DNA of 58,977 bases from Sphingomonas sp. Its GTDB lineage: Bacteria > Pseudomonadota > Alphaproteobacteria > Sphingomonadales > Sphingomonadaceae. The notes beneath the pieces were generated by a model. It saw only the letters and a program-made list of their open reading frames with translations, ran no database searches and was not told the DNA's origin. The DNA lies in contig NZ_JANYGG010000071.1 of the NCBI RefSeq assembly GCF_025362505.1, positions 1 through 58,977 on the forward strand. Direction: 5' to 3'. This document shows positions 41,344 through 55,257 of this stretch, piece by piece (the first letter of the stretch is position 1; each line of letters begins with the position of its first letter). Both the position numbers and the translations under genes were made by a program.

Positions 41344-43830
41344 TCAGGGGCAACGCTGGTCGGCGACGGCCTCCAGACCGAGACGTTTGATGGTCAGTGC
41401 AAGCGGGCCTTGCGTGGCGATCCGCGCAGGATTTTCGACTGCGGTCAGAAGCGCCTTGTCGGTGGTAAAACAGTGCAACGGTACGGCCAGCCTGATCGGT
41501 CCAGCCTTTCCAAGCAACGACGTGACGTCCACATCAATCCCGGCAAATCCAAGCTTCACCGGCGTGACCGGCGGTTCGTCGACGCGGCCGTCAAGCACCA
41601 ACCCGAAACCTTCGATCGCTTCCCTGGTCAGATCGCTTTTCGGTCCGTCGAACGACATTGTGCCGGCGCCGATCCAGCGTACCATGCGACTGTCTTCCTG
41701 CGCGGCCAAGTCGACCGGTCGAGAGTTCACCTTCCCAGATGGGCTGGACACGGTGCCACCGTTAACCGGGCGCGCACCGCCCTCGTCCGACAGCGACATC
41801 GTCCACGGCGCCAGCGCAAGTCCCTTTTCGAAATAATGGTCGAGGTTGAGCGCTGCCGCCACGTCGATCCCCGGCGCTTCGGCCAGCGTCGGCACATGCG
41901 ACGGCCTAGCGTAGCTCTGGCCATAGCCGAGCGGGAAGAGAGGTCGGCCGATCGGCGATCTTGCATCCCTCGGCCAGGCGAATGACAAGCGCCCGGTGAA
42001 ATCACGCCGCGGGCGGCCACCTGGCCCGGCGATGAGTACATCGGCGATGCCGCCGCCCTCGGTGCCCGGCAGCCATGCCGCGACGAACGCGTCGGAGGCG
42101 TTGATCTCGGGCGACGTGAACAGCGGACGGCCCGAAAGGAACACGGACACCACCTTGATGCCAGCCGCGCGCAGGCGCTTGAGCAGCTTGAGATCGCTGG
42201 TGTCCTGCGGACGGTAGGCGAGCGTGGGAACGTCACCCTGGAATTCGGCATAAGGATTTTCGCCGAACACGACGATCGCGACATCGGGCCGCGTCTCGAA
42301 GCGGCCGTCGGCGGACAGCGTAGCCGTTCCGCCGTTCGCGGTAACTGCTTCGGCAATGCCGTCATAGATCGACTGACCAGCCGGGAAATCCTTCTTGGTC
42401 GTATCAAGTCCTTGCCAGGTGATTGTCCAGCCACCCGCCTGTTTGGCCATGTCGTCGGCACCGTCGCCAGCTACTAGCACCCTGGTGCCGGGACGGATCG
42501 GCAACAGCGAGCCCTCGTTCTTGAGCAACACGAGGCTTTGGGCGACGGCGCGGCGTGCGATCGCGCGATGCTCCGCATGGCCGATCCGCGACGGCTCATC
42601 GCGCACTTTCCTGCCATCGAGCAGACCCAGCTTGGCCTTGACCCGAAGGATCCGCCGTACCGCGTCGTCGATGCGCGCGATCGGGATACGCCCGGCGCGA
42701 ACATCTGCGATTGTATTGTCGTAGAGTCCCTTCCAGCTGTCGGGCGCCATCATTAGGTCGAGCCCGGCGTTGTATGATTGCGGGCAGTGAATCGTGGTGC
42801 AGCCATCGACCTGGCCATGCGCGTTCCAATCGCCAACGGTCAGTCCGGCGAAACCCATGCGGCCCTTCAGCACGTCGGTGATCAATGACCGATTGGCGTG
42901 ATTCTTGACCCCGTTCCAGCTCGAGAAGGAGATCATGACGGTCAACGCCCCCGCGTCGATTGCTGCGGGATAGCCTTGGGCGTGGTGGGCGACCAGGAGC
43001 GACTCGCTTAACCGGGCGTCGCCTTGATCCTTCCCGCCGAACGTGCCCCCGTCGGCAAGAAAATGCTTGGCAGTGGCGGCGACATGATTTGCGGCGATAG
43101 GGTTGCCGCTGGTCAACCGCCCCTGGAGGCCAAGCGTCATGGCACGCGCATAAGTGGCAACCAGCGCCGGGTCAGACGAATAGCCTTCATAGCTTCGTCC
43201 CCAGCGCAGGTCCTGCGGCGCGGCCAGGGTCGGGGCGAAAGTCCATTCGATACTGCTCGCAGAGACTTCGTCGGCAGTTGCGGCCCCGATCTGCTGGACT
43301 AGCGCCGGGTCGTGCATCGCGCCGAGCCCGATGTTGTGCGGAAAAATGGTCGCGCCGGGCAGGTTGGAATGGCCGTGGACCGCGTCAACTCCGAACAGGA
43401 TTGGAATGCCCGAGGCGCTTGCGTGGGCGCGGTACTGGCGGACCATCTCGGCCCACTTGCTGCTGGTTGCGCGTTCATCGCCGAACGGGCCGCTGTTACC
43501 GCCGGCGAGGATCGAACCCAGCGGATAGCGGTCGAGGTCCTGCGGGGTAATCGAACTGATATCGGCCTGAATGGTCTGGCCGACCTTTTGCTCCAGCGTC
43601 ATGCGAGCGATGACGCGGCCGATACGAGCCTCGGTCGCAGCGTTGGTGAACGCCGCCGGACTATGCGCTCGCGGCCAGCGCAAGGGGTGCGCAGTCGCCG
43701 CTGGGCTTGTTGGCGCAAGGGAGACACGAGTGGCGCCGGAGGCCGCACCGGAGGCCGCGCTGGCAAGGAGGACGCCAACCACCGTCGCAACGAGAGCACC
43801 CCGCCCGCCAAACCGTTTTTCGTGGACCAT
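41344..43830 (-). CDS. GH3 beta-glucosidase, secreted
   Basis: The 828-residue enzyme has a signal peptide (about 1-30), a GH3 N-terminal domain with KHFLADGGT, nucleophile D334 in GLTVGDWNAHG, a GH3 C-terminal domain with the KNEGSLLPI segment, and a C-terminal beta-domain like that of ExoP-type exo-1,3/1,4-glucanases. It probably releases glucose from beta-1,3 or beta-1,4 oligosaccharides in the periplasm. GGGGGAG supports ATG 43830. It has its own promoter and LacI-type operator just upstream and is read leftward behind the MFS gene of the same locus. Confidence 0.92.
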   Translation of the reverse strand: MVHEKRFGGRGALVATVVGVLLASAASGAASGATRVSLAPTSPAATAHPLRWPRAHSPAAFTNAATEARIGRVIARMTLEQKVGQTIQADISSITPQDLDRYPLGSILAGGNSGPFGDERATSSKWAEMVRQYRAHASASGIPILFGVDAVHGHSNLPGATIFPHNIGLGAMHDPALVQQIGAATADEVSASSIEWTFAPTLAAPQDLRWGRSYEGYSSDPALVATYARAMTLGLQGRLTSGNPIAANHVAATAKHFLADGGTFGGKDQGDARLSESLLVAHHAQGYPAAIDAGALTVMISFSSWNGVKNHANRSLITDVLKGRMGFAGLTVGDWNAHGQVDGCTTIHCPQSYNAGLDLMMAPDSWKGLYDNTIADVRAGRIPIARIDDAVRRILRVKAKLGLLDGRKVRDEPSRIGHAEHRAIARRAVAQSLVLLKNEGSLLPIRPGTRVLVAGDGADDMAKQAGGWTITWQGLDTTKKDFPAGQSIYDGIAEAVTANGGTATLSADGRFETRPDVAIVVFGENPYAEFQGDVPTLAYRPQDTSDLKLLKRLRAAGIKVVSVFLSGRPLFTSPEINASDAFVAAWLPGTEGGGIADVLIAGPGGRPRRDFTGRLSFAWPRDARSPIGRPLFPLGYGQSYARPSHVPTLAEAPGIDVAAALNLDHYFEKGLALAPWTMSLSDEGGARPVNGGTVSSPSGKVNSRPVDLAAQEDSRMVRWIGAGTMSFDGPKSDLTREAIEGFGLVLDGRVDEPPVTPVKLGFAGIDVDVTSLLGKAGPIRLAVPLHCFTTDKALLTAVENPARIATQGPLALTIKRLGLEAVADQRCP

Positions 43831-43851
43831 TGCTCTCCCCCGCTCATTTTT

Positions 43852-43863
43852 GAGAACGTTCCC
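43852..43863 (-). promoter_or_regulatory. LacI-type operator at the GH3 promoter
   Basis: GAGAACGTTCCC holds the perfect palindrome GAACGTTC with flanking T/A symmetry (TGaGAACGTTCcCA). It sits directly downstream of a candidate promoter read toward GH3: -35 TTGCCT (43894-43889), 18-bp spacer, -10 TATCTT (43870-43865). A repressor bound here would block initiation. The LacI regulator encoded at 54202-55257 is the natural candidate. Confidence 0.7.
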
Positions 43864-43908
43864 AAAGATAGGCAGGGTCTGCGTGCGAAGGCAAGTCACC
43901 AACCAGAA

Positions 43909-45111
43909 TCAGCGGATTTTCAATCTCCAAAGAATTACCGCAGGGATCACCATCATCGCCGCCAGACTGCCCAGCAGCCCGTGATAGCCAAAGCGGCCGA
44001 TCACGATCGCCGCGAGCATCGGCGAGGTTAGCGATGGCAGCGTATTCGTGAGATTGAACAGGCCTAGGTCGCGGCCAAAGCGTTCCGGATCGGGCAATTG
44101 CTGCATGGCAAAGGCCGAATGCAGCGCGAGAAAGCTGTTCGATCCCATGAGAAAAACCGCGTAGGAGGCAATCACCGCCATCCACGATCCCGTCATTGCC
44201 ATCCCGGCGAGTCCGATCGCGATCAGGGCGAGCATTGCCATCAGTGGTAGCTTGCGCCGGTTCAGCGCGTCGGACAGGCGCCCGACCGAAAGGGCCACGG
44301 GGATCGCCGCGAGCTGCACGGCGGCATTCGTCCAGGCATATTCTCCGACCGAGAGTTTGCCGGACGAGACCGTGCGCAGGAAATAGAAAATGAACAGGAA
44401 AACCAAGCCCTCGGCGATCTGGACGAATAGCCGGACGAGCCATAGCGTCCACAGCGTTTCAGCCTTTGGTCGCTCGCCCTGCTCGCGACGGCGCGTGCCG
44501 GCGACCGCGCCGAACGCGGGAGCGGTGGCACGCGCCAGCAACGGCAGGAACGACATTGCGACGATCAGCATGATCAGCGCGAACTGGTGCGCGAGATCTC
44601 CTGGCACCATCGCCACACCGATCACCGACAAGGCGGCAAAGGCTGGCGCGAACGCAAGCATCCCGCCCAGCAATCCCTTCTGCTGATCGTCGAGGCTGTC
44701 GGCGGCATAGGCGGAGAGCGGTGCCAGCATCAGATTGAGCGCGACCTGCCAACCGGCCACGGCCATCACCAGCGTTCGGGGATCGTCGGCCAGGACGATC
44801 GCCAACGCACCGACGCCGGTTGCGACAAGTCCAGCTGCTGACCAGCGCAAACGCCGTCGGCGGGTCGCGCGCGGCCAGCGATCGCTCGCCCATCCCCACG
44901 CGATGTTCGATATCCCGGCAGCAATTGCGCCGATGGTGGCACAAAATGCCAGCCATCGGACGTCGCCGTCGCCGGCCAGGTCGGAGAAGCGAATCGGCAA
45001 CAGCAGCGTCAGAAACGGCGTATAGGCGATCGAACCGCCCGACCAGGCGAGCGCATAGGCGACGAGGAAACCGAGCGGCTGCCGCTGCCCTGCAGATGAC
45101 GGTCGGTTCAC
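43909..45111 (-). CDS. MFS sugar transporter (GPH-like)
   Basis: The 400-residue protein has about 12 transmembrane helices, with AYALAWSGGSIAYTPFLTLLLP as helix 1 and the loop WGWASDRWPRATRRRR, the motif-A region, after helix 2. The pattern resembles glycoside/oligosaccharide MFS permeases of sphingomonad sugar loci. In context it probably imports glucose or short beta-glucosides released by the GH3 enzyme. The start is GTG 45111, preceded by an in-frame TGA, so no longer form exists. The ribosome-binding site is weak. It diverges from the TonB receptor gene. Confidence 0.82.
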   Translation of the reverse strand: MNRPSSAGQRQPLGFLVAYALAWSGGSIAYTPFLTLLLPIRFSDLAGDGDVRWLAFCATIGAIAAGISNIAWGWASDRWPRATRRRRLRWSAAGLVATGVGALAIVLADDPRTLVMAVAGWQVALNLMLAPLSAYAADSLDDQQKGLLGGMLAFAPAFAALSVIGVAMVPGDLAHQFALIMLIVAMSFLPLLARATAPAFGAVAGTRRREQGERPKAETLWTLWLVRLFVQIAEGLVFLFIFYFLRTVSSGKLSVGEYAWTNAAVQLAAIPVALSVGRLSDALNRRKLPLMAMLALIAIGLAGMAMTGSWMAVIASYAVFLMGSNSFLALHSAFAMQQLPDPERFGRDLGLFNLTNTLPSLTSPMLAAIVIGRFGYHGLLGSLAAMMVIPAVILWRLKIR

Positions 45112-45281: not shown

Positions 45282-45309
45282 TTGACAAAGTGAACGTTCA
45301 CATTCAAAT
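45282..45309 (+). promoter_or_regulatory. TonB-receptor promoter with embedded LacI-type operator
   Basis: A consensus -35 TTGACA (45282-45287) is followed after 16 bp by a -10-like TCAAAT (45304-45309). The perfect palindrome GTGAACGTTCAC (45290-45301) occupies the spacer, so a bound repressor would exclude RNA polymerase. The palindrome shares the GAACGTTC core with the GH3 site. Confidence 0.75.
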
Positions 45310-45374
45310 CTACCGGTGAGTTGGAAGAAGCTGACGACAGTGCGGCTCTCCAATCACCGGAGGGGGATTTCAGA

Positions 45375-48356
45375 ATGACGAAGAGCCGCAGCCACATATT
45401 GGCGACGTTGATGGTTGGAGTGTCGCTGACCGCGATCGCCATTCCGCAGCAGGCCGCGGCTCAGACCGCCGCCCTTCCCGCCGCCGATCCTAACGCGAAC
45501 AGCGAAATCATCGTGACCGGCATCCGCGGCAGCCTCAGGACGTCGCGCAATATCAAGCGCGACTCGCAGGGCGTGGTCGACGCGATCTCGGCCGAGGACA
45601 TCGGCAAGTTCCCCGACACCAACCTCGCCGAGTCGCTGCAGCGCATCACCGGCGTGTCGATCGACCGCAGCAATGGCGAAGGCTCGTCGGTCACGGTCCG
45701 CGGCTTTGGACCCGACTTCAACCTGGTGCTGCTTAACGGCCGCCAGATGCCAGCCTCTGGCCTTGGCGGCGGCGGGGCGCCCGCCTCGCGCAGTTTCGAT
45801 TTCGGCAACCTTGCCTCCGAAGGCATTGCTGCGGTCGAAGTCTACAAGTCGGGCCGCGCGGCCCTGCCGACAGGCGGCATCGGCTCGGTCATCAATATCA
45901 AGACCGCGCGCCCGCTCGATCGGCCCGGGCTCAAGGGTAGCTTCGGTTTCAAGGCGGTGTACGACACCTCGCGCTTCTCGGGCAGTAAGTTGTCACCCGA
46001 AATTTCGGGCATCATCAGCGACACCTTTGCCGACGACAAGATCGGGATCCTCGTCAGCGGTTCTTACCAGCGCCGCAAGTCGAGCCAGGCCCAATTCAAT
46101 GCCGGCTGGCGCGAAGGGTATCTTGGCAGCGACGGCTGCCAAGAGGGGAATTGGGGTGCGCTTGCCGCCGGGCCGAACGACTGGTGCGGCAGCAGCAACA
46201 ACATCGTCAATCGCCCAAAGGCAACCGACAGCTATCAGACGACGCAGAATGCGGGCTATGACTTCACCGACGTCGATCGCAAGCGGATCAACGGCCAGCT
46301 GGTGCTGCAAGCCAAGCCGACCGAAAATCTGCTAGCGACGGTCGATTATACTTTTTCGCAGAACACGGTCGACTCCCGGACCAGCAGCATCGGCGTCTGG
46401 TTCAACCATAGCAACACCAGCAGCAGCTGGACCGACGGCCCTGCGGCCAGCCCGAATTTCTATTCGGAAGTGTTCGGGCCGGGCAAGGATCTCGCGATCA
46501 CCGGCGCGGTCGCAGCCAATCGCTCGACCAATCGGTCGATCGGCGGCAACCTGGCATGGCATGGCCTGGGCGGCGCGCGCCTGGAACTCGACGCGCACCA
46601 CTCGACCGCGGAGAGCAAGCCGACCTCCCCCTACGGCAGCAACATCGCCGTGGGCAGCGCGATCTTCGGCGTGCAGTCGCAGAAGGTCGATTACACCCAC
46701 GACATGCCGGTGATCTCGGTCGTTTTGGCTCCGGGATCGGAACTCAACGCCGCAAATATTCGCCCCGCGGGCAATGCCTTCCGCAACGCCTACATGCGCG
46801 ACCGCATCAACCAGGTCTCGCTCAAGGCCGGCTATGATTTCGATACGTCGTTTATCAAGAGCCTCGATTTCGGCGCGACCCTGACCGACAACAAGGTCCG
46901 TTCGGCGTTTGGTAACATCCAGAACGACACCTGGGGTGGCACCCTGTCCGCCGCCGACACGCCGGACAATCTCTACTCCATTATCGGCTTGCCGGACCGG
47001 CTCAGCGGCATGGAAGGATCGAATGATCCGGCCATTATCCCCAATTATTTCCAGGTCGATACCGTCGGCTTGATCAATTTGCTGCAGAGTAAACTCAACA
47101 TCTGCGGAGCTTCGGCCACGCCGGGCGCTTGCCTGGCGAATTACACGGTCGATCGCCGCATTCGCGAGAAATCGATCGCGCCCTACGCGCAGACGACCCA
47201 CGAGTTCAATCTGTTCAGCAACCCGTCTCATCTCCGGCTGGGCGTTCGCTATGAGCGGACGAAAGTTTCGAGCTCGGCGCTCGTGCCCGTCCCGACCACG
47301 ACCTTCTTGGCCGCATTCAACGAAATTTCGATCATCCAGCCGACGACATCGGACTTCACGACGCTTAAGGGTGAATATAAGAATTGGCTGCCAGCGGTTG
47401 ATTTCGACGTGTCGCCGATGCGCGATTTCAAGTTGCGTGCGGCCTACAGTCACACCATCACCCGGGCCGATTATGCGAGCCTGCAGGGCGGACTGACGGT
47501 TGTCTCACCTGCCCGTCCAAATGGCGGCAGCACGGGTGCCAGCGGCAATCCCAATCTGCTGCCGTACAAGTCCAAGAATATCGATCTGTCGGCCGAATGG
47601 TATTATGGTCGCGAAAGCTATGTCTCGATCGGCTTCTTCCACAAGACGGTGAGCAACTTCATCGGGACGACGACCACGCAGGGGCCTGTGTTCGGGCTGA
47701 CCAACCCTGGTCAGGGGGCTGCATTCAATGCAGCCAAGGCAGCCTTGGGCCCGAACGCGACGTTCCAGCAGATTCTGGCGTACGTCCAGACAAACTATCC
47801 CGCGCTGATTCATCGTGACGGGAATAATGCACCTGACGGCATCCTCAGCTCGCCCAGTGATCCAGCGCTGGTATTTACCGTCGGGCAGCCGGGCAACAGC
47901 GACCAAGTGGCGCACCTCAAGGGCTGGGAGTTCGCGATCCAGCATAGCTTCTGGAATACCGGCTTTGGCGCCATCCTGAACTACACGATCGTCAAGAGCG
48001 ACACGCAATACGACAATGCGAAGCGCTACACCGTCACTCAATTCGCGGTGCCCGGAGTAAGCAATTCGGCCAATGCGGTCCTGTTTTACGACAAGGGCGG
48101 GCTGCAGGCGCGCGTGGCCTATAACTGGCGCGCGGGCTTCCTGGCCGGCTACGGGCTCGACCCGTTCTACGTGAATTCCTATGGTCAGTTCGACGCGAGC
48201 GCTAGCTACGAGGTGCGCAAGGGGCTGACGGTGTTCGCCGAAGGGATCAACCTGACCAACGCCGATCGCAGTGGCCATATGCGCGGCAATCAGGCGAAGT
48301 TCTTCGCGGCACCGGGCTATGCTCGCTATGCGGGAGGCGTTCGCTACAGCTTCTAA
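45375..48356 (+). CDS. TonB-dependent receptor of the beta-glucan locus
   Basis: The 993-residue outer-membrane transporter has a signal peptide (about 1-33), the plug domain beginning EIIVTGIRGSLRTSRNIK with ISAEDIGKFPDTNLAESLQRITGVSIDR and VRGFGPDFNLVLLNGRQMP, and a long beta-barrel ending in the terminal aromatic YSF. The IRGSL plug start marks the large TonB-receptor subgroup that is associated with carbohydrate loci in Caulobacter, Sphingomonas and Xanthomonas. A GGAGGGGGA ribosome-binding site supports ATG 45375. It is controlled by an operator inside its promoter and heads the rightward transcript. Oligosaccharide substrate is inferred from the GH3 and GH16 neighbours. Confidence 0.93.
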   Translation: MTKSRSHILATLMVGVSLTAIAIPQQAAAQTAALPAADPNANSEIIVTGIRGSLRTSRNIKRDSQGVVDAISAEDIGKFPDTNLAESLQRITGVSIDRSNGEGSSVTVRGFGPDFNLVLLNGRQMPASGLGGGGAPASRSFDFGNLASEGIAAVEVYKSGRAALPTGGIGSVINIKTARPLDRPGLKGSFGFKAVYDTSRFSGSKLSPEISGIISDTFADDKIGILVSGSYQRRKSSQAQFNAGWREGYLGSDGCQEGNWGALAAGPNDWCGSSNNIVNRPKATDSYQTTQNAGYDFTDVDRKRINGQLVLQAKPTENLLATVDYTFSQNTVDSRTSSIGVWFNHSNTSSSWTDGPAASPNFYSEVFGPGKDLAITGAVAANRSTNRSIGGNLAWHGLGGARLELDAHHSTAESKPTSPYGSNIAVGSAIFGVQSQKVDYTHDMPVISVVLAPGSELNAANIRPAGNAFRNAYMRDRINQVSLKAGYDFDTSFIKSLDFGATLTDNKVRSAFGNIQNDTWGGTLSAADTPDNLYSIIGLPDRLSGMEGSNDPAIIPNYFQVDTVGLINLLQSKLNICGASATPGACLANYTVDRRIREKSIAPYAQTTHEFNLFSNPSHLRLGVRYERTKVSSSALVPVPTTTFLAAFNEISIIQPTTSDFTTLKGEYKNWLPAVDFDVSPMRDFKLRAAYSHTITRADYASLQGGLTVVSPARPNGGSTGASGNPNLLPYKSKNIDLSAEWYYGRESYVSIGFFHKTVSNFIGTTTTQGPVFGLTNPGQGAAFNAAKAALGPNATFQQILAYVQTNYPALIHRDGNNAPDGILSSPSDPALVFTVGQPGNSDQVAHLKGWEFAIQHSFWNTGFGAILNYTIVKSDTQYDNAKRYTVTQFAVPGVSNSANAVLFYDKGGLQARVAYNWRAGFLAGYGLDPFYVNSYGQFDASASYEVRKGLTVFAEGINLTNADRSGHMRGNQAKFFAAPGYARYAGGVRYSF

Positions 48357-48372
48357 GGCTGCGGGGTTGATT

Positions 48373-48412
48373 CCCGGCGCTGGGTAACGGACAGTCGTTC
48401 ACCAGCGCCGGG
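48373..48412 (+). other. Strong intergenic hairpin after the TonB-receptor gene
   Basis: CCCGGCGCTGG (48373-48383) and CCAGCGCCGGG (48402-48412) form a perfect 11-bp stem with an 18-nt loop that can itself pair AACG with CGTT. There is no T-run. It lies 17 nt after the receptor stop codon and 51 nt before halogenase 1. It could protect the receptor mRNA from 3' decay or act as a partial terminator so that receptor mRNA exceeds that of the downstream genes. Confidence 0.6.
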
Positions 48413-48462
48413 GAGGTTCGCCCGCCATTCCGGCGAAGGCGGCGGCGAAGCAGGCGGAACAG

Positions 48463-50013
48463 ATGGAACGGCCGGTCGAGCGTATCATCATTGTCGGCGG
48501 CGGTACTGCTGGCTGGCTGGCGGCGGCCTACCTCGCCTCGCGGTCGGCCAAGTTCGCCGCGCGGCCACCGTCGATTACGCTGATCGAGGCGCCCGACATT
48601 CCGACCGTCGGGGTCGGAGAGGGCAGCTGGCCGACGCTGCGCGAGACGCTGGCAACGATCGGCATCGGCGAGGCCGAGTTCCTGCTGGCCTGCGATGGTT
48701 CGTTCAAACAGGGATCGCGGTTCGATGGTTGGCGCGATGGCGGCGCGGACGATCGCTATCTTCATCCGTTCTCCCCGCCGCCCCCGCTCGACCCGAATGA
48801 ACTGGTGGCGGCGTGGCGCGGCGAGGCGCCTGACATGCCTTTCGCTGCGGCGGTGACGGCACAGGCCGAGGCGTGCGCGCGCGACCTCGCCCCGCGCCAG
48901 CGCGCGATGCCCGACTATGCCGGTGCGCTCAATTACGGTTACCACCTCGATGCGGTAAAGTTTGCGGCGTTGCTCGCACATCACGCGGTTGACCGGCTCG
49001 GCGTGCGGCACGTCGCCGACCAGGTGATCGCGGTCGAGCCTGACGACGAGGGCTATATCGCCGCCGTCACCACGCGCGACCACGGCCGCATCGAAGGCGA
49101 CCTGTTCATCGATTGCACCGGCCATGCCGCGCTGTTGATCTCTGGACATTTCGGGGTCGACTGGGTTGAGCGCGGCGACGTCCTGTTCAACGACCGCGCG
49201 CTGGCGGTGCAAGTGCCGGTCGCGGGTATTTCGCCGATCGCCTCACAGACCATCGGCACCGCGCATGAGGCGGGGTGGCTGTGGGACATCGGCTTGCCAA
49301 CGCGGCGCGGCGTCGGCTGTGTCTATTCGTCAAAGTTTACCGATGACGCGCGCGCCGAGGCGATCCTTCGCGAATACCTGATGCGCACTGCGCCGGATGT
49401 CGACCAGTCGTCGCTGGCACCGCGCCGGCTGGCCTTTCCAACCGGACACCGTGACCAGTTCTGGAAGGGCAATTGCCTGGCAATCGGGCTCGCCGCGGGC
49501 TTCCTCGAGCCACTCGAAGCCTCGGCGATCGTCATGGCCGAGCTGTCACTGCGCGCCCTGGCGGACAATTTCCCGGCGAACCGCGAGACGATGCCGATCC
49601 ACGCTCGCCGGTTCAACGCCCGCTTTCGCGAACGCTGGGATCGGATCATCGATTTCCTCAAGCTCCATTACCTGTTGAGCCGGCGACCGGAGCCCTATTG
49701 GCAGGCGCACCGCGCGGCCCAGAGCGTGCCCGCGCATCTCGCCGACCTGGTTCGCTTGTGGCGCGGCCAGCCGCCGTCGCCGGGCGATTTCCCGCTGATC
49801 GACGAAATGTTTCCCGCCGCCAGCTATCAATATGTCTACTACGGCATGGGCGGCGCGGTCCCTGACCTAGCGTATCGGCACGGCGCTCCGCTCGATCGTT
49901 CGATCCGCGAACGGTCGCGGTCGCTGGCGGCGGCGCTGCCGACGAATCGCGCCTATCTCGACGCGTTGCGCAGCGCCGTAACGCCGCAGTCCCAGAAAGT
50001 ACCGGCGGCATGA
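48463..50013 (+). CDS. Flavin-dependent tryptophan-halogenase-family protein 1
   Basis: The 516-residue protein has the FAD motif GGGTAGW (12-18), the halogenase lysine K82 in [13 protein letters not shown] and the glutamate segment [11 protein letters not shown]. The diagnostic WxWxIP motif is altered to WLWDIG (272-277). These enzymes use FADH2, O2 and halide to make HOCl, which the lysine channels to an indole or other aromatic acceptor. No flavin reductase is adjacent. The gene follows the TonB receptor and overlaps SapC by 4 bp (ATGA). The natural acceptor is unknown; a peptide- or receptor-linked substrate is inference. It could also have lost halogenation and kept FAD chemistry. Confidence 0.85.
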
Positions 50014-50729
50014 GCCAGCACCAAATTCTCGACAATGCCACTCATCGCGACCTGCGCGTCCATACCGGGGTCGGCGCGGCGCTTGGCGACAACGTGATGG
50101 CCTGTCTTGCCGTGCCGAACGAATTTCGCCGGCTGCAGAACCAGTTCCCGATCCTGTTTCGGCTGGACATCGAGCGCAACAGTTTTTCGGCACTGGCGCT
50201 GATGGGGTTCGAGCAGGACGAGAATCTGTTCATCGAGGACGGGCGCTGGGACGCCAGCTACCGTCCGCTCGCGCTCAGCATCCAACCGTTCCTGATCGGC
50301 CGCGCGTCCGATGGCGACGGACCGGGGCAGGTCCACGTCGACATGGGCCATGCCCGCATCGCCACCGATGGCGAGGGCATGCGACTGTTCGACGACACGG
50401 GCGCACCGTCGCCCTATCTCGATACCGTCGCCGAACAACTTGGGAACCTCGACGCCGGCTATCGCGAGTCAGCCGAGTTCTTTTCTGCGCTGAACCATTT
50501 CGAATTGCTCGAACCCTTCTCGCTCGACGTCGATCTGGTCGACGGATCGACCCAGCGCATGGTCGGCTATCACCTGATCGACGAGGACAAGCTTTACGCC
50601 CTCGACTCCGCCGCGCTGGGCGACCTTCACGCCGCGGGCCACCTCATGCCGGTGTTCATGGCGCTGGCGTCGCTGTCCAACATCCCGGCGTTGATCGAAC
50701 GCAAGAACCGACGGGTTGGACGTGGCTGA
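50010..50729 (+). CDS. SapC family protein
   Basis: The 239-residue protein matches the SapC family: it opens with HRDLRVHTG and [22 protein letters not shown], then the segment [29 protein letters not shown], and ends with [15 protein letters not shown]. The name derives from a Campylobacter S-layer locus gene, but no biochemical function is established. In alphaproteobacteria SapC commonly accompanies TonB receptors, tryptophan-halogenase-like proteins and cupin proteins, as here. It has no signal peptide, so it is probably cytoplasmic. It overlaps both neighbours and is translated with them. Confidence 0.85.
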
Positions 50730-51753
50730 GTCAGCTGGCGTAGATTTCGGCGCGCTGCCGCGCGTGGCCGAAGAAGTGCTGGCTGACGCCGACGCGCTCG
50801 ACACCCGGCTGGCCGGGGCGACGACACCGTTCGTGGTACGAGGGCTGGTTGCCGACTGGCCGCTGGTTCAGGCGGGACGAGAATCGGGCGCCGCCGCCCG
50901 CGCCTATCTGCTGCGCCATCGCCGCGAACGCGCCTTTACCGTCGCGATCGGCCGACCGGGCGGCGGCGAGCGGTTATTCTACGATGACAAAATGGCGATA
51001 AACTTTCGTACCTTGCGCGCCAGCCTGCCCGAGATTTTTTCCGCCATCGACGCCAATGAAGGCAATCCCGCCGGGCCGGCCATGTATCTGGCATCAATCG
51101 ACCTGCACGACTTTTTCAACGGCTTGCACGACGCCAACCTTGTTGCGCTGGGCGCGCGCGATCCACTCGCCAGCATCTGGATCGGCACCCCGACCCGCAT
51201 CGCCGCGCATAATGATTACCCCGACAACCTTGCCTGCTGCGCGGTCGGCCACCGCCGCTTCACCCTGTTTCCGCCCGACCAGTTCGCCAACCTTTACCTT
51301 GGCCCGGTCGAACATACCCCCGCCGGGCGGACGGTCAGCATGGTCGATCTGAAGGCGCCCAATTTCGATACTTTTCCGAAATTCCGCACGGCGCTGTCGC
51401 ACGCGCTGGTGGCCGAGCTTGCTCCTGGCGATGCGTTGTTCATTCCGTCGCTGTGGTGGCACCATGTCGAGGCGCTCGACCCGTTCAACGTGTTGGTCAA
51501 TTACTGGTGGCGCGATAGCGCGCGCTATCTGGGTCAACCACAGGACGCACTCAACCACGCCATGCTGGCGGTCCGCGACCTGCCCGACCATCAAAAAGCT
51601 TACTGGCGCGCGCTGTTCAACCATTATGTATTCGACAATGGAGACGATGTGACAAGCCATATCCCGACCGACGCCCGGGGCGTGCTGGCGCCGCTGACGC
51701 CCGATACCGCCGGCAAGTTGCGCGCCAACCTGTTGCGGGCCTTGTCGCGGTGA
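50722..51753 (+). CDS. Cupin-like/JmjC-fold protein (cupin_8 type)
   Basis: The protein of about 343 residues has a jelly-roll core with the iron-binding pattern HND in IAAHNDYPDNLACC and the distal histidine in SLWWHHVEALD, plus WIGTPTRIAAHND and FTLFPPDQFANLYLGP, as in Fe(II)/2-oxoglutarate peptide hydroxylases of the cupin_8/JmjC group. It may hydroxylate a protein or peptide side chain; substrate unknown. Start GTG 50722 is favoured over TTG 50716; either overlaps the sapC end. Its stop overlaps the GTG of halogenase 2 (GTGA). It is one of four consecutive genes that form a possible modification module. Confidence 0.82.
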   Translation: MAESAGVDFGALPRVAEEVLADADALDTRLAGATTPFVVRGLVADWPLVQAGRESGAAARAYLLRHRRERAFTVAIGRPGGGERLFYDDKMAINFRTLRASLPEIFSAIDANEGNPAGPAMYLASIDLHDFFNGLHDANLVALGARDPLASIWIGTPTRIAAHNDYPDNLACCAVGHRRFTLFPPDQFANLYLGPVEHTPAGRTVSMVDLKAPNFDTFPKFRTALSHALVAELAPGDALFIPSLWWHHVEALDPFNVLVNYWWRDSARYLGQPQDALNHAMLAVRDLPDHQKAYWRALFNHYVFDNGDDVTSHIPTDARGVLAPLTPDTAGKLRANLLRALSR

Positions 51754-53279
51754 ACGGCCCGCGTTCGACCGACATGCGATCGACCGACTGGCCGTTGAAG
51801 CGTGTCGTCATTGCCGGCGGCGGCACCGCGGGCTGGATGGTGGCGGCCGCGATTGCGCGCACGCTGGGCCCGCTGGTGGATCTGACATTGGTTGAATCCG
51901 AGGCCATCGGCACGGTCGGTGTCGGCGAAAGCACTATCCCGCCGCTGGTCGCCTACAACCGGTTGCTGGGCATCAACGAAGCCGAGTTCATGCGCGCGAC
52001 CCAGGCAACGTTCAAGCTGGGTATCCAGTTCGACAATTGGCGGGTGCTCGACGAAGGCTATTTCCATTCGTTCGGGATCTGCGGAAAAGATCATTGGTCC
52101 GCCGGATTCCAGCATTTCTGGCTGGACGCGTGCGAGCGCGGGATGGCCGGCTCCTACGGCGATTATTGTCTCGAGCTGAAAGCCGCTCAGGCCGGGAAAT
52201 TCGCGCATTTGCCCGATGACCGGATGCATTATGCCTACCAACTCGATTCCGGCCTTTATGCCCGGTTCCTGCGGACTATGGCCGAAGCCGATGGCACGCG
52301 CCGCGTCGAGGGCAAGATCACCGCGGTCGAACTGGACGGCGAAAGCGGCAACATCGGCGCGCTGACGCTCGACAGCGGAACGCGTATCGAAGGCGACCTG
52401 TTCATCGACTGCACCGGGTTTCGGGCGCTGTTGATCGAGGGCGCGCTGAACGCCGGGTTCGACGACTGGAGCCACTATCTGCCCTGCGATTCGGCAATTG
52501 CCGCGCAGACCCGGTCGATCGGACCAGCGGTGCCCTTCACCCGCGCCACCGCGCATGATGCCGGTTGGCAATGGCGCATTCCACTGCAGCACCGGACCGG
52601 CAATGGCATTGTCTATTGCAGCCATTACCTCGACCGTGAAGCGGCGCTGGAACGCTTTACCGGCAACCTCCAGGGCGATCGGCTGACCGAGCCCAATTTC
52701 ATTCGCTTCACTACGGGAGCCCGGCGCAAGCAGTGGCACCGAAACTGCGTCGCGATCGGTTTGTCGGGCGGGTTCATGGAGCCGCTGGAATCGACCAGCA
52801 TCCACCTGATTCAGCGCGCCGTGCTGCGCTTTGTACGGATGCTGCCGCTGCGCGAGATCAGCCAGCGCGACATCGATGAATTTAACGACCAGCAGATGAC
52901 CGACATGCTGCAGATCCGCGATTTCCTGATCCTCCACTACAAGGCCACCGAGCGCCGCGACAGCGCGTTCTGGCGCCATTGCGCGGCGATGGATATCCCC
53001 GACACGCTGGCTCACAAGATCGAGCTGTTCCGCGAGACCGGGCGGGTGTTCCGCAGGAATGAGGAGTTGTTCGCCGAGAACAGCTGGGTGCAGGTTATGC
53101 TGGGTCAGGGGATTACGCCGCGAAGCTATCACCCGATTGCGATGAAGTTGCCCGACGATGAAATGATCAAGCTGCTGGACACGTTGCGCGGGCAGGTCGA
53201 CCAGACGGTCGCCAGCCTTCCCGCCCACGCCGAGTATGTCGCCCGCTATTGCGGCGCCAGCAAGGCCGCTGCGGCATGA
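51750..53279 (+). CDS. Flavin-dependent tryptophan-halogenase-family protein 2
   Basis: The 509-residue protein has the FAD motif GGGTAGW (23-29), the canonical halogenase motif WQWRIP (273-278), the lysine K89 in ATFKLGIQFDNW and the EPLESTSI segment with the catalytic glutamate. Thus all residues known to be needed in PrnA/RebH-type halogenases are present, in contrast with halogenase 1, where WxWxIP is altered. It starts at GTG 51750 overlapping the cupin stop codon; ATG 51774 is an alternative. Its end overlaps the GH16 start (ATGA). Substrate unknown; free tryptophan, a peptide or a phenolic glycoside are all possible. Confidence 0.88.
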   Translation: MNGPRSTDMRSTDWPLKRVVIAGGGTAGWMVAAAIARTLGPLVDLTLVESEAIGTVGVGESTIPPLVAYNRLLGINEAEFMRATQATFKLGIQFDNWRVLDEGYFHSFGICGKDHWSAGFQHFWLDACERGMAGSYGDYCLELKAAQAGKFAHLPDDRMHYAYQLDSGLYARFLRTMAEADGTRRVEGKITAVELDGESGNIGALTLDSGTRIEGDLFIDCTGFRALLIEGALNAGFDDWSHYLPCDSAIAAQTRSIGPAVPFTRATAHDAGWQWRIPLQHRTGNGIVYCSHYLDREAALERFTGNLQGDRLTEPNFIRFTTGARRKQWHRNCVAIGLSGGFMEPLESTSIHLIQRAVLRFVRMLPLREISQRDIDEFNDQQMTDMLQIRDFLILHYKATERRDSAFWRHCAAMDIPDTLAHKIELFRETGRVFRRNEELFAENSWVQVMLGQGITPRSYHPIAMKLPDDEMIKLLDTLRGQVDQTVASLPAHAEYVARYCGASKAAAA

Positions 53280-54226
53280 TCGCGGGGTTAATCCTCGCCG
53301 CCGCGATGGCTGCCGCGCCGGTTGCGCCGCCGGTAGCCGAACCTGACTGGAAGCTGGTGTGGTCGGATGAATTTGGCAGCAGTCGCATCGATCGGCGCAA
53401 ATGGGATTTCGATGTCGATTGTGCCGGCGGCGGCAATGAAGAACGGCAGTGCTATACCGCACGTCGCAGCAATGCGTCCGTAGGGGGCGGATACTTGTCG
53501 ATCACCGCGCGCCGCGAAACCTGGCATGGCCCGGCTCAGATGCACGGACAGCCGGGGAGTACCGGCGGCGCCAAGGAAGCCACCAAGTCGTTCACCTCGG
53601 CGCGGCTCGTGACCCGCGGCAAGGCATCTTGGCGCTACGGCCGAGTCGAAGTCCGCGCTCGGCTTCCGCTCGGCCAGGGCAGTTGGCCAGCGATCTGGAT
53701 GTTGCCGGAGAAATGGCGCTACGGCTCCTGGCCGCGCTCGGGCGAGATCGACATCATGGAAGCGGTCAACCTTGGCACGCCTTGCGTAAAGTGCGCCGGC
53801 GGGCGTGAAAATCATGTCCTCGGAACGATCCATTTCGGTGATCACCCACCGGCTAACAAATATCTGTCGACCGAAGTCGAGTTGTCGGGTGCAATCGACG
53901 GATTTCACACATATCGCGTCGACTGGTCCCCCGAACGCATTGCCTGGTCGGTCGATGGCCGGCCCTATGTTGAGCGGCTGCTGGGCGAATGGTCGACCCC
54001 GACCTCGACCGATCCGCATGCGCCGTTCGACCAGCCCTTTCACCTCATCCTGAATCTGGCGATCGGCGGTCACCTGCCCGAGGGTCGCAACCTCGGCGGC
54101 GTGAGCCTTTCCGGCTTTCCACGATCGATGCAGGTCGATTGGGTGCGGGTGTGGCAACGCCAGGATGAATTGGCTAGCCCGGACCGAAGCAAGGGGGCAG
54201 AATGGGACGGCGTCGCCAAGCGGTAA
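53276..54226 (+). CDS. GH16 endo-beta-1,3-glucanase (laminarinase-like), secreted
   Basis: The 316-residue enzyme has a signal peptide (about 1-21) and a GH16 jelly-roll with the catalytic motif EIDIMEAV (E157 nucleophile, D159, E162 acid/base). The extra methionine in ExDxxE is the form typical of laminarinases and lichenases. WSDEFGSS at the start and WPAIWMLP before the active site are further GH16 marks. It likely cuts beta-1,3-glucan at or outside the cell surface, giving oligosaccharides for the TonB receptor and the GH3 enzyme. ATG 53276 overlaps the halogenase 2 stop codon. Confidence 0.92.
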   Translation: MIAGLILAAAMAAAPVAPPVAEPDWKLVWSDEFGSSRIDRRKWDFDVDCAGGGNEERQCYTARRSNASVGGGYLSITARRETWHGPAQMHGQPGSTGGAKEATKSFTSARLVTRGKASWRYGRVEVRARLPLGQGSWPAIWMLPEKWRYGSWPRSGEIDIMEAVNLGTPCVKCAGGRENHVLGTIHFGDHPPANKYLSTEVELSGAIDGFHTYRVDWSPERIAWSVDGRPYVERLLGEWSTPTSTDPHAPFDQPFHLILNLAIGGHLPEGRNLGGVSLSGFPRSMQVDWVRVWQRQDELASPDRSKGAEWDGVAKR

Positions 54227-55257
54227 CGATCAAGCATGTGGCGGCCGATGCGGACGTCTCGTTGCAAACGGTGAGCCGGGTCATCAATAATGAGGCCGGC
54301 GTTCGGCCGGAGATGAAGCAGCGCGTCCAGGAAGCGATCGACCGGCTCGGCTATGTGCCATCGCTGGCCGCCCAGCGGATGAGCGGGTCGCGCTCCTACC
54401 TCATCCTGGCGCTCAACGATCGTGACCGCACCATTGCCGACTGGCGCAGCCGCGAAGGTGCCGACTGGGTCGACCAGATGTTGCTCGGCGGCATGATCAA
54501 GGCCGCGGAATACGGCTATCGGCTGATGTTGGAACTGGTCGACACGCATAATGACCATGTCGAGCGTGAGTTGCGCGCCACGATTGCCGCGCTTCAGCCG
54601 GACGGCGTCATCCTGACCCCTCCGCACAGCGACAATCCGCTGATCACCGCCATGCTCGCGGAACAACAGATCAGCTTCGCTCGCATTGGCACGAAACAGC
54701 CGGGGCCAGGCATTTCGATCACGATGGACGACGAAAATGCCGCGGCGATGGCGACCCGCCACTTGATCGATCTGGGCCATCGTCGGATCGGCTTCATTTC
54801 GGGTTCACCCGAATATTCGCTCAGCGCGTGGCGGGTCGACGGGTGGCGTACGGCGATGAGCGAGGCCGGGCTCGCGATCGATGGGATGCTGGCAAAGGGC
54901 GACTTCAGCTTCGCGTCGGGGACCCACGCGGCCGGTAACTTGCTATCGCTCACCGATCCGCCAACCGCGATCATCGCCAGCAATGACCAGATGGCGCTTG
55001 CAACTCTTCGAGAGGCAAACTGCCGAGGATTGGCGGTCCCAGATCAGTTATCGCTGATCAGCTTCGACAATACGCCGATCGTTCGCTTCGTGCAGCCGCC
55101 GCTGACCGCGATAGACCAGCCGATTGCCGGGTTGGCGTCGAAAGCGGTGGAGTTGATCGTCGCACACCAACGTCGCTCGGAACTAACCCAAACGTCGGTC
55201 GTCGTCGCTGCCACCCTGGTCGTCCGCAACTCGACCGCTCCGCCACAGCGGCGATAG
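54202..55257 (+). CDS. LacI-family transcriptional regulator of the locus
   Basis: The 351-residue protein has the LacI HTH and hinge (VTIKHVAADADVSLQTVSRVINN, with RLGYVPSLAAQRM) and a periplasmic-binding-protein-like ligand domain with PDGVILTPP, RRIGFISGSPEYS and PTAIIASNDQMALA. It probably represses the GH3, MFS and receptor promoters until a glucan-derived sugar binds. ATG 54202 has AAGGGGG upstream and lies within the GH16 3' end (25-bp overlap), so regulator and enzymes share a transcript and feedback is likely. Ligand identity is inference. Confidence 0.92.
   Translation: MGRRRQAVTIKHVAADADVSLQTVSRVINNEAGVRPEMKQRVQEAIDRLGYVPSLAAQRMSGSRSYLILALNDRDRTIADWRSREGADWVDQMLLGGMIKAAEYGYRLMLELVDTHNDHVERELRATIAALQPDGVILTPPHSDNPLITAMLAEQQISFARIGTKQPGPGISITMDDENAAAMATRHLIDLGHRRIGFISGSPEYSLSAWRVDGWRTAMSEAGLAIDGMLAKGDFSFASGTHAAGNLLSLTDPPTAIIASNDQMALATLREANCRGLAVPDQLSLISFDNTPIVRFVQPPLTAIDQPIAGLASKAVELIVAHQRRSELTQTSVVVAATLVVRNSTAPPQRR

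Follow-up and report, generated by a model that had tools for sequence, protein, structure and literature searches.

A gene cassette of two halogenases, SapC and a cupin conserved beside one subtype of TonB-dependent receptor in proteobacteria

Background

Among the closest described relatives of the genes reported here are two crystallised halogenases of family PF04820, Xcc4156 (6y1w) and BrvH (6frl). The available text of the papers on these enzymes describes open active sites, suggests that substrates are "possibly even peptides" and gives the native substrates as unknown (PMC7336383, PMC5945002); that on BrvH compares it with the peptide halogenase MibH and records a second halogenase gene adjoining brvH (PMC5945002). 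The word "receptor" is absent from the main texts of both. Two members of the same family are encoded in Sphingomonas sp. (Sphingomonadaceae; assembly GCF_025362505.1, contig NZ_JANYGG010000071.1, of which the whole stretch of 58,977 nucleotides analysed is called the window), where four consecutive genes for halogenase 1 (FDH1), SapC, a Cupin_8/JmjC protein and halogenase 2 (FDH2), together termed the cassette, lie between the genes of a TonB-dependent receptor and a GH16 glucanase. Over its N-terminal 204 amino acids, Xcc4156 shares 65% identity with window FDH2 and 89.7-91.2% with the FDH2 proteins of six Xanthomonas cassettes. BrvH lies closer to halogenases linked to receptors in loci without SapC (53% identical to L248) than to window FDH2 (44%). 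The tryptophan halogenase of PDB 9ltb, known here from its deposited name and sequence alone, is about 89% identical over 199 amino acids to FDH1 of L183 and L204 and 65% identical over 200 amino acids to window FDH1.

Other described systems share single features with the locus. According to the available text of its description, QhpG is a halogenase-like flavoprotein that dihydroxylates peptidyl tryptophan in the cytoplasm before export (PMC7876137); the window halogenases lie far below the cut-off of its peptidyl-tryptophan hydroxylase profile NF049967 (31.6 and 24.3 bits against 240) and fall outside that family. This locus shares with the carbohydrate utilisation loci of TonB receptors (CUT/PUL; PMC1790865) the combination of a receptor, hydrolases, a transporter and a LacI regulator; the main text of that paper does not mention halogenase, SapC, Pass1, JmjC or cupin. 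The cupin has the HxD...H triad of FIH, JMJD5 and JMJD7 and differs from them in being bacterial and operon-borne. Tryptophan-halogenase transcripts of phages and Colwellia have been reported, which the available text tentatively links to competition or to virus-host receptor redox, and not to this cassette (PMC11337851). No paper joining a halogenase with SapC was found in the literature searched, which excluded most subscription papers; an earlier note on this DNA had called the four genes an undescribed system, a description that holds for that literature only. SapC and tryptophan halogenase genes appear in regulon databases beside outer-membrane sugar receptors, so the co-occurrence of SapC and halogenases with receptors may not itself be new.

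Conservation of the cassette

The cassette is very probably a real, conserved and receptor-associated unit. Species-representative genomes were scanned with a 25-row cupin alignment, at least 577 relatives were confirmed, and the best 80 of these were analysed. SapC and a receptor are found upstream of the cupin in 78 of the 80 loci, a halogenase downstream in 74 and a second halogenase upstream in 59, and the cupin occurs without the rest of the cassette in two (L212, L217). The complete order receptor-halogenase1-SapC-cupin-halogenase2 recurs in 59/80 loci, and the four-gene arrangement is therefore more than chance. (L192, which seems to be the same place as L088, is counted among the 80 and excluded from later counts.) These loci are spread over the alpha-, beta- and gammaproteobacteria, with hosts that include Sphingomonadaceae, Hyphomonadaceae, Kordiimonas, Massilia, Duganella, Rubrivivax, Xanthomonas, Lysobacter, Stenotrophomonas and Marinimicrobium; of 397 genomes sampled across the phylum, 36 gave a strong match to the cupin. 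The earlier note had named, among its grounds for doubting a joint function, rare co-occurrence of the four genes in other genomes, and had proposed a test of their linkage to the receptor subtype; what was found is a conserved set, a single receptor clade and a shared operator.

SapC has a wider distribution, with matches in 118/119 genomes of the host family and 42/192 of the host class. Among 100 SapC regions (60 of the host family, the majority taken from genomes that carry multiple SapC genes, and 40 of the class), 73 are stand-alone, 26 have the cupin and one (L159) lies by a receptor and halogenase without a cupin; the cupin is present in only two of the 40 class regions. The neighbours of the 73 stand-alone genes gave no clue to a role. 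Such genes, for example G000:C88:1770-2429 (L062), have housekeeping-type neighbours. Departures from the usual layout include the following: L071, L076, L109, L115 and L253 are rearranged, with receptor and halogenase on one strand and SapC and cupin divergent on the other, and the Xanthomonas cassettes L214, L218, L223, L232, L239 and L240 are all without FDH1.

In a tree of 102 representative receptors, those with SapC and cupin group in a single clade of 50 members (support 0.82), comprising 48 labelled as such, L085, in which the pair is about 5 kb away, and the second receptor of L231; halogenase-only receptors are spread over several other clades. A separate tree of 88 receptors requires 11 changes of halogenase linkage, against 27.6 in shuffles, indicating that linkage is conserved within clades. 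The distances among receptors and those among their halogenases are correlated, with r 0.84 in 44 thinned cassette pairs and r 0.46 (p 2e-4) in 18 checked pairs without SapC; the "FDH-only" group of 19 receptors used for the residue and motif comparisons below included receptors merely near a cassette or halogenase (candidates are L231 second, L167, L230, L249 second and L210 second). The receptor is the only non-enzyme gene recurring with the cassette, and recurrence beside one receptor subtype suggests that the cassette serves that receptor, perhaps by chemical modification.

Linkage of halogenases to TIGR01782 receptors

Genome-wide linkage was counted in ten genomes of the host family, picked from those carrying multiple SapC genes, and in ten genomes outside it, picked because the cupin is present, so that every genome counted holds SapC or the cupin. 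In the host family, 50 of 57 PF04820 halogenase genes are situated within 8 kb of a TIGR01782 receptor, as is about 5.7% of the genome (59 rows gave 57 places, two pieces of one gene being joined and one row with E 3e-4 dropped). The same holds for 19 of 25 Cupin_8 genes (a 26th row, below the cut-off, was dropped) and 13 of 24 SapC genes; each of the ten genomes contributes one of the 11 unlinked SapC genes, and G032 a second copy as well. Receptors above the cut-off number at least 112 places among the matches listed, and of the 112 there are 78 without halogenase, cupin or SapC, 16 with halogenase only, 12 with all three, four with halogenase and cupin, one with cupin only and one with cupin and SapC. 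Outside the host family, 73/80 halogenases are within 8 kb of a receptor versus 5.9% expected, and 51 of 140 receptors have a halogenase at that distance. In genome G453, a receptor lies within 8 kb of 16 of the 17 halogenases, often with two or three halogenases per receptor. The window's own genome has five halogenases, all on the three contigs that carry its three receptor matches (one of them a partial match under the cut-off) and each within about 7 kb of such a match. A receptor-service role of the cassette is strongly supported.

Halogenases, cupin and SapC

Both window halogenases match the PF04820 profile and have a visible GxGxxG motif for flavin adenine dinucleotide. For the halogenase tree, 199 of 204 matches were kept (L192 was excluded); possession of GxGxxG was required for entry, and its conservation within the set is consequently no test. 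One half of the tree holds all 91 copies from downstream of the cupin, and the other half holds 65 of the 70 upstream ones, a split that beta- and gammaproteobacterial cassettes obey as well; the five upstream copies that break it come from three loci without SapC (L243, L244, L248). Because the tree separates upstream from downstream copies, the two positions have not been interchanged in SapC loci. The catalytic lysine and glutamate are present in every upstream (70/70) and downstream (91/91) copy and in 32/36 solo copies. WxWxIP is complete in FDH2 copies (proline in 91/91), and upstream copies keep the two tryptophans and the isoleucine, with glycine, alanine or aspartate replacing the proline in 65/70. 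Degenerate paralogues without the catalytic lysine and glutamate (L242 9501, L244 5481, L245 9736, L251 7041) adjoin intact halogenases in receptor loci without SapC, and are possible pseudo-enzyme partners.

The cupin residues H165, D167 and H249 are invariant in all 25 aligned sequences, and the best solved relatives, over the C-terminal half of the cupin, are FIH, JMJD5 and JMJD7, which are protein hydroxylases. SapC had no solved relative by sequence comparison; its Glu38 and Pro86 are invariant (59/59 aligned), as is His12 in 43 cassette-type rows (two of which, L107 and L159, are without the cupin). By a crude signal-peptide heuristic, the receptor and the GH16 protein of the window are exported and the four cassette proteins are not; across loci the heuristic was positive for 80/103 receptors, 2/43 SapC, 2/25 cupins, 1/91 FDH2 and 13/70 FDH1. 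The four cassette proteins are accordingly predicted to be cytosolic.

Cargo genes

Common neighbouring open reading frames (ORFs) encode GH3 (55), LacI (44), MFS (33) and GH16 (26) proteins. Ten further neighbour proteins were scanned and gave matches to GH43, GH31, GH39, S9 (DPP-IV-type) peptidase, DUF885 and alpha/beta hydrolase, to SSF and MFS transporters and to a GH3, with one protein unmatched; the survey left 562 ORFs, many of them spurious frames, unassigned in 392 clusters. An S9 peptidase gene recurs in six loci, of which five are of Xanthomonas, while halogenase-only loci carry GH43 and GH31 genes and two cassette loci (L109, L253) also have GH43. The six Xanthomonas cassettes listed above have S9 peptidase, DUF885 or alpha/beta hydrolase genes near, which may mean peptide cargo. 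A glucan-specific role as a general rule was rejected, because S9 and DUF885 genes adjoin Xanthomonas cassettes and GH43, GH31 and GH39 genes are found in other receptor-halogenase loci. Since the neighbouring genes vary, the cassette is tied to the receptor type rather than to glucan, and its link with glucan is incidental.

Proposed function and alternatives

The best mechanism on offer, although it falls somewhat short of probable, is that the four genes form an accessory cassette of the upstream TonB receptor and act by covalent modification of it. The cassette enzymes would be cytosolic and less abundant than the receptor. Before export, the halogenases would act on the receptor precursor by halogenation or flavin hydroxylation of tryptophan or other aromatic side chains, and the FIH/JMJD-like cupin would hydroxylate a side chain of it; SapC would be a recognition or scaffold protein. 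Such modification would tune ligand binding, gating or assembly of the receptor, with sugar specificity residing in the receptor and the neighbouring hydrolases and not in the cassette. More tentatively, this may be a widespread proteobacterial system for post-translational modification of TonB receptors: with SapC as guide, paired tryptophan-type halogenases and an FIH-like hydroxylase would add halogen atoms, hydroxyl groups or both to receptor side chains in the cytosol before export, and halogenase-only versions would serve receptors of other clades.

In favour of the receptor as substrate are its place as the recurrent non-enzyme partner, the occurrence of several sets of halogenases in one genome with almost every set beside a receptor, the catalytic residues conserved in halogenases and cupin, the protein hydroxylases among the relatives of the cupin, the open active sites described for Xcc4156 and BrvH, the published comparison of BrvH with MibH, and QhpG as a precedent. 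Several observations weigh against modification of the receptor. Linkage and co-divergence could also follow from operon inheritance alone, and C2orf60, a tRNA hydroxylase, is also among the solved relatives of the cupin, further down. Tests of receptor sequences for a common target residue gave weak results or none: every column with conservation of 80% or more in the two linked groups is also frequent among unlinked receptors (63% or more), and none of 35,520 gapped W/Y/H motifs was discriminating. Tryptophan enrichment (1.36/1.09/0.89% in Sphingomonadaceae receptors) was dropped as a target mark after it was not replicated in other genomes (1.30 versus 1.03%, p 0.58, 20 versus 20 receptors, about five of the 20 linked ones looking cassette-type by score). 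Trp538 (ORF numbering) is present in 103/103 cassette receptors; outside these it is found in 20/34 linked versus 9/55 unlinked receptors (p 5.5e-5 among 524 tests, with about five of the 34 looking cassette-type by score and with L345, L354 and L355, of which the longest ORF is in the wrong frame, included), and in tree-matched pairs, from which those three were excluded, the ratio is only 6:2. Trp360 is tryptophan in all 97 cassette receptors with a halogenase gene nearby, and of the six without one, three of a single clade have tyrosine and three keep tryptophan; absence of a halogenase gene beside the cassette need not mean absence from the genome. As a separate observation, the plug motif PDxN has asparagine in 8/34 halogenase-linked versus 45/55 unlinked receptors, many linked ones outside the cassette clade (for example L334, L343 and L244) having serine. 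Two cassette receptors inspected keep asparagine, so this serine is probably a clade mark, and it was rejected as a mark of linkage.

The product of the cassette could be a small aromatic compound, halogenated or hydroxylated (a signal, ligand or defence compound), with its output tied to receptor expression, but this is rather unlikely. A halogenase and an oxygenase could share one metabolite, and BrvH brominates free indole, weakly, according to the available text (PMC5945002); but G453, with nearly all of its 17 halogenases beside receptors and often two or three per receptor, is not readily explained in this way, and the operon has no gene for precursor biosynthesis, export or resistance. 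The same two observations, with the predicted cytosolic location of the enzymes (from the crude heuristic) and the position of some cassettes by peptidase genes, leave poorly supported two roles suggested in the earlier note, modification of a sugar-linked aromatic and defence of the released sugars by a halogenated compound; receptor modification, its remaining suggestion, is the best candidate of the three. Action on imported cargo, by way of aromatic groups on a polysaccharide or peptide, has little probability. The cassette does share its operon with GH16/GH3 and LacI genes, GH43 and GH31 genes accompany other loci as described above, and xylans of GH43/GH31-type loci carry ferulate, but beta-glucan has no aromatic groups, Xanthomonas cassettes lie by S9 and DUF885 genes, and the enzymes appear to be cytosolic.

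That SapC and the cupin are tied to one receptor clade would also be expected if the cassette made a diffusible cofactor or ligand for the receptor plug, or protected the receptor by redox or halide scavenging, with no covalent change; this is improbable, as no cofactor candidate was found and halogenase genes accompany receptors of several clades. Finally, the genes might be passengers held by operon inheritance, with a shared role unrelated to the receptor. Tight overlap and operon structure alone can hold genes together, and correlated distances would then be expected, but the genes stay together in the five rearranged loci and halogenases without SapC accompany receptors of several clades, which makes passenger status quite improbable.

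Gene layout and regulation

The genes and other features of the locus are collected in Table 1, with families assigned by Pfam and NCBIfam profiles. Coordinates and profile matches confirm the earlier note in that four intact, overlapping genes of these families follow one another between the receptor and GH16 genes. All four are on the + strand, and a gap of 106 bp, with no overlap, separates the receptor gene from FDH1. Its range of 4-8 bp for the overlaps is right for FDH1/SapC and cupin/FDH2 (4 bp each); the SapC/cupin overlap is 14 bp from the first start of the cupin ORF (TTG) and 8 bp only from an alternative GTG at 50722, read from the translation. The likely receptor start is ATG 45375, followed by a signal peptide, according to the ORF call and the heuristic. 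The first start of the GH16 ORF is TTG, and an in-frame ATG at 53276 would give a 4-bp overlap with FDH2.

Table 1. Genes and regulatory features of the receptor locus, by position in the window
Feature	Position	Strand	Evidence
GH3 beta-glucosidase-type enzyme	41344-43902	-	family profile match
Second GAACGTTC core, adjoining GH3 gene start	43854-43861		
MFS transporter, divergent	43909-45111	-	family profile match
Palindrome TGAACGTTCA (as GTGAACGTTCAC at 45290-45301), probable LacI operator of receptor operon	45291-45300		
TonB-dependent receptor, TIGR01782 subfamily	45321-48356	+	596.7 bits against cut-off of 310
Strong RNA hairpin without U-tract, between receptor and FDH1	48371-48414	+	z -3.68
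FDH1 (halogenase 1, upstream orthologue group)	48463-50013	+	PF04820, 381 bits; Lys and Glu present; Pro of WxWxIP replaced by Gly
SapC	50010-50729	+	PF07277, 207 bits, profile positions 1-220
Cupin_8/JmjC Fe(II)/2-oxoglutarate-type oxygenase	50716-51753	+	PF13621, 225 bits; HxD...H = H165, D167, H249
FDH2 (halogenase 2, downstream orthologue group; Xcc4156/6y1w relative)	51750-53279	+	PF04820, 616 bits
GH16 glucanase, N-terminus signal-peptide-like	53249-54226	+	PF00722, 53 bits
LacI-family regulator, probable regulator of operon	54202-55257	+	PF00356/PF13377

With a receptor, hydrolases, a sugar regulator and a common operator, this is a carbohydrate-utilisation locus. It does not resemble a secondary-metabolite cluster: the operon (45321-55257) consists only of the receptor, the four cassette genes, GH16 and LacI, with no core biosynthesis, export or resistance gene among its ORFs and family profiles (no cluster-finding program was used), and GH3 and MFS adjoin it on the divergent side.

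Upstream of the receptor, the GAACGTTC core occurs in 48/50 cassette loci whose LacI is window-like (at least 500 bits), in 0/11 with a weaker LacI match and in 2/42 without LacI, and also in 1/5 other receptors of LacI-holding loci and 0/40 unlinked receptors, for which a median of only 180 bp of upstream sequence entered the count; the background is 0.018 per 600 bp, and related loci are not independent. Within the window alone, the 12-mer GTGAACGTTCAC is not above chance at two mismatches, and hence it is recurrence upstream of receptors that constitutes the evidence for an operator. The LacI consensus WNNTGNNANCGNTNNCANNW was rejected as not above chance, and a consensus scan for promoters and terminators was uninformative.

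A stem of at least nine pairs follows the receptor stop codon in 58/65 and 32/32 cassette loci, in 15/17 halogenase-only loci and in 18/60 random segments, the last drawn from loci at large and not from the 3' ends of unlinked receptors. The hairpin is not special to the cassette, because halogenase-only loci have such stems too. It may act as an expression step-down or as a stabiliser of mRNA, which would fit a high level of the receptor and lower levels of the enzymes.

Implications

Close relatives of Xcc4156 and PDB 9ltb are receptor-associated genes, and the question of their substrate thus becomes directly testable, by comparing a receptor with and without its cassette; the orphan crystallised halogenases Xcc4156 and BrvH gain a testable job. 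Should halogenation or hydroxylation of receptors indeed take place, halogenases would have a new natural role outside antibiotic-type pathways, and many environmental bacteria would control the uptake of nutrients at a further, new level.

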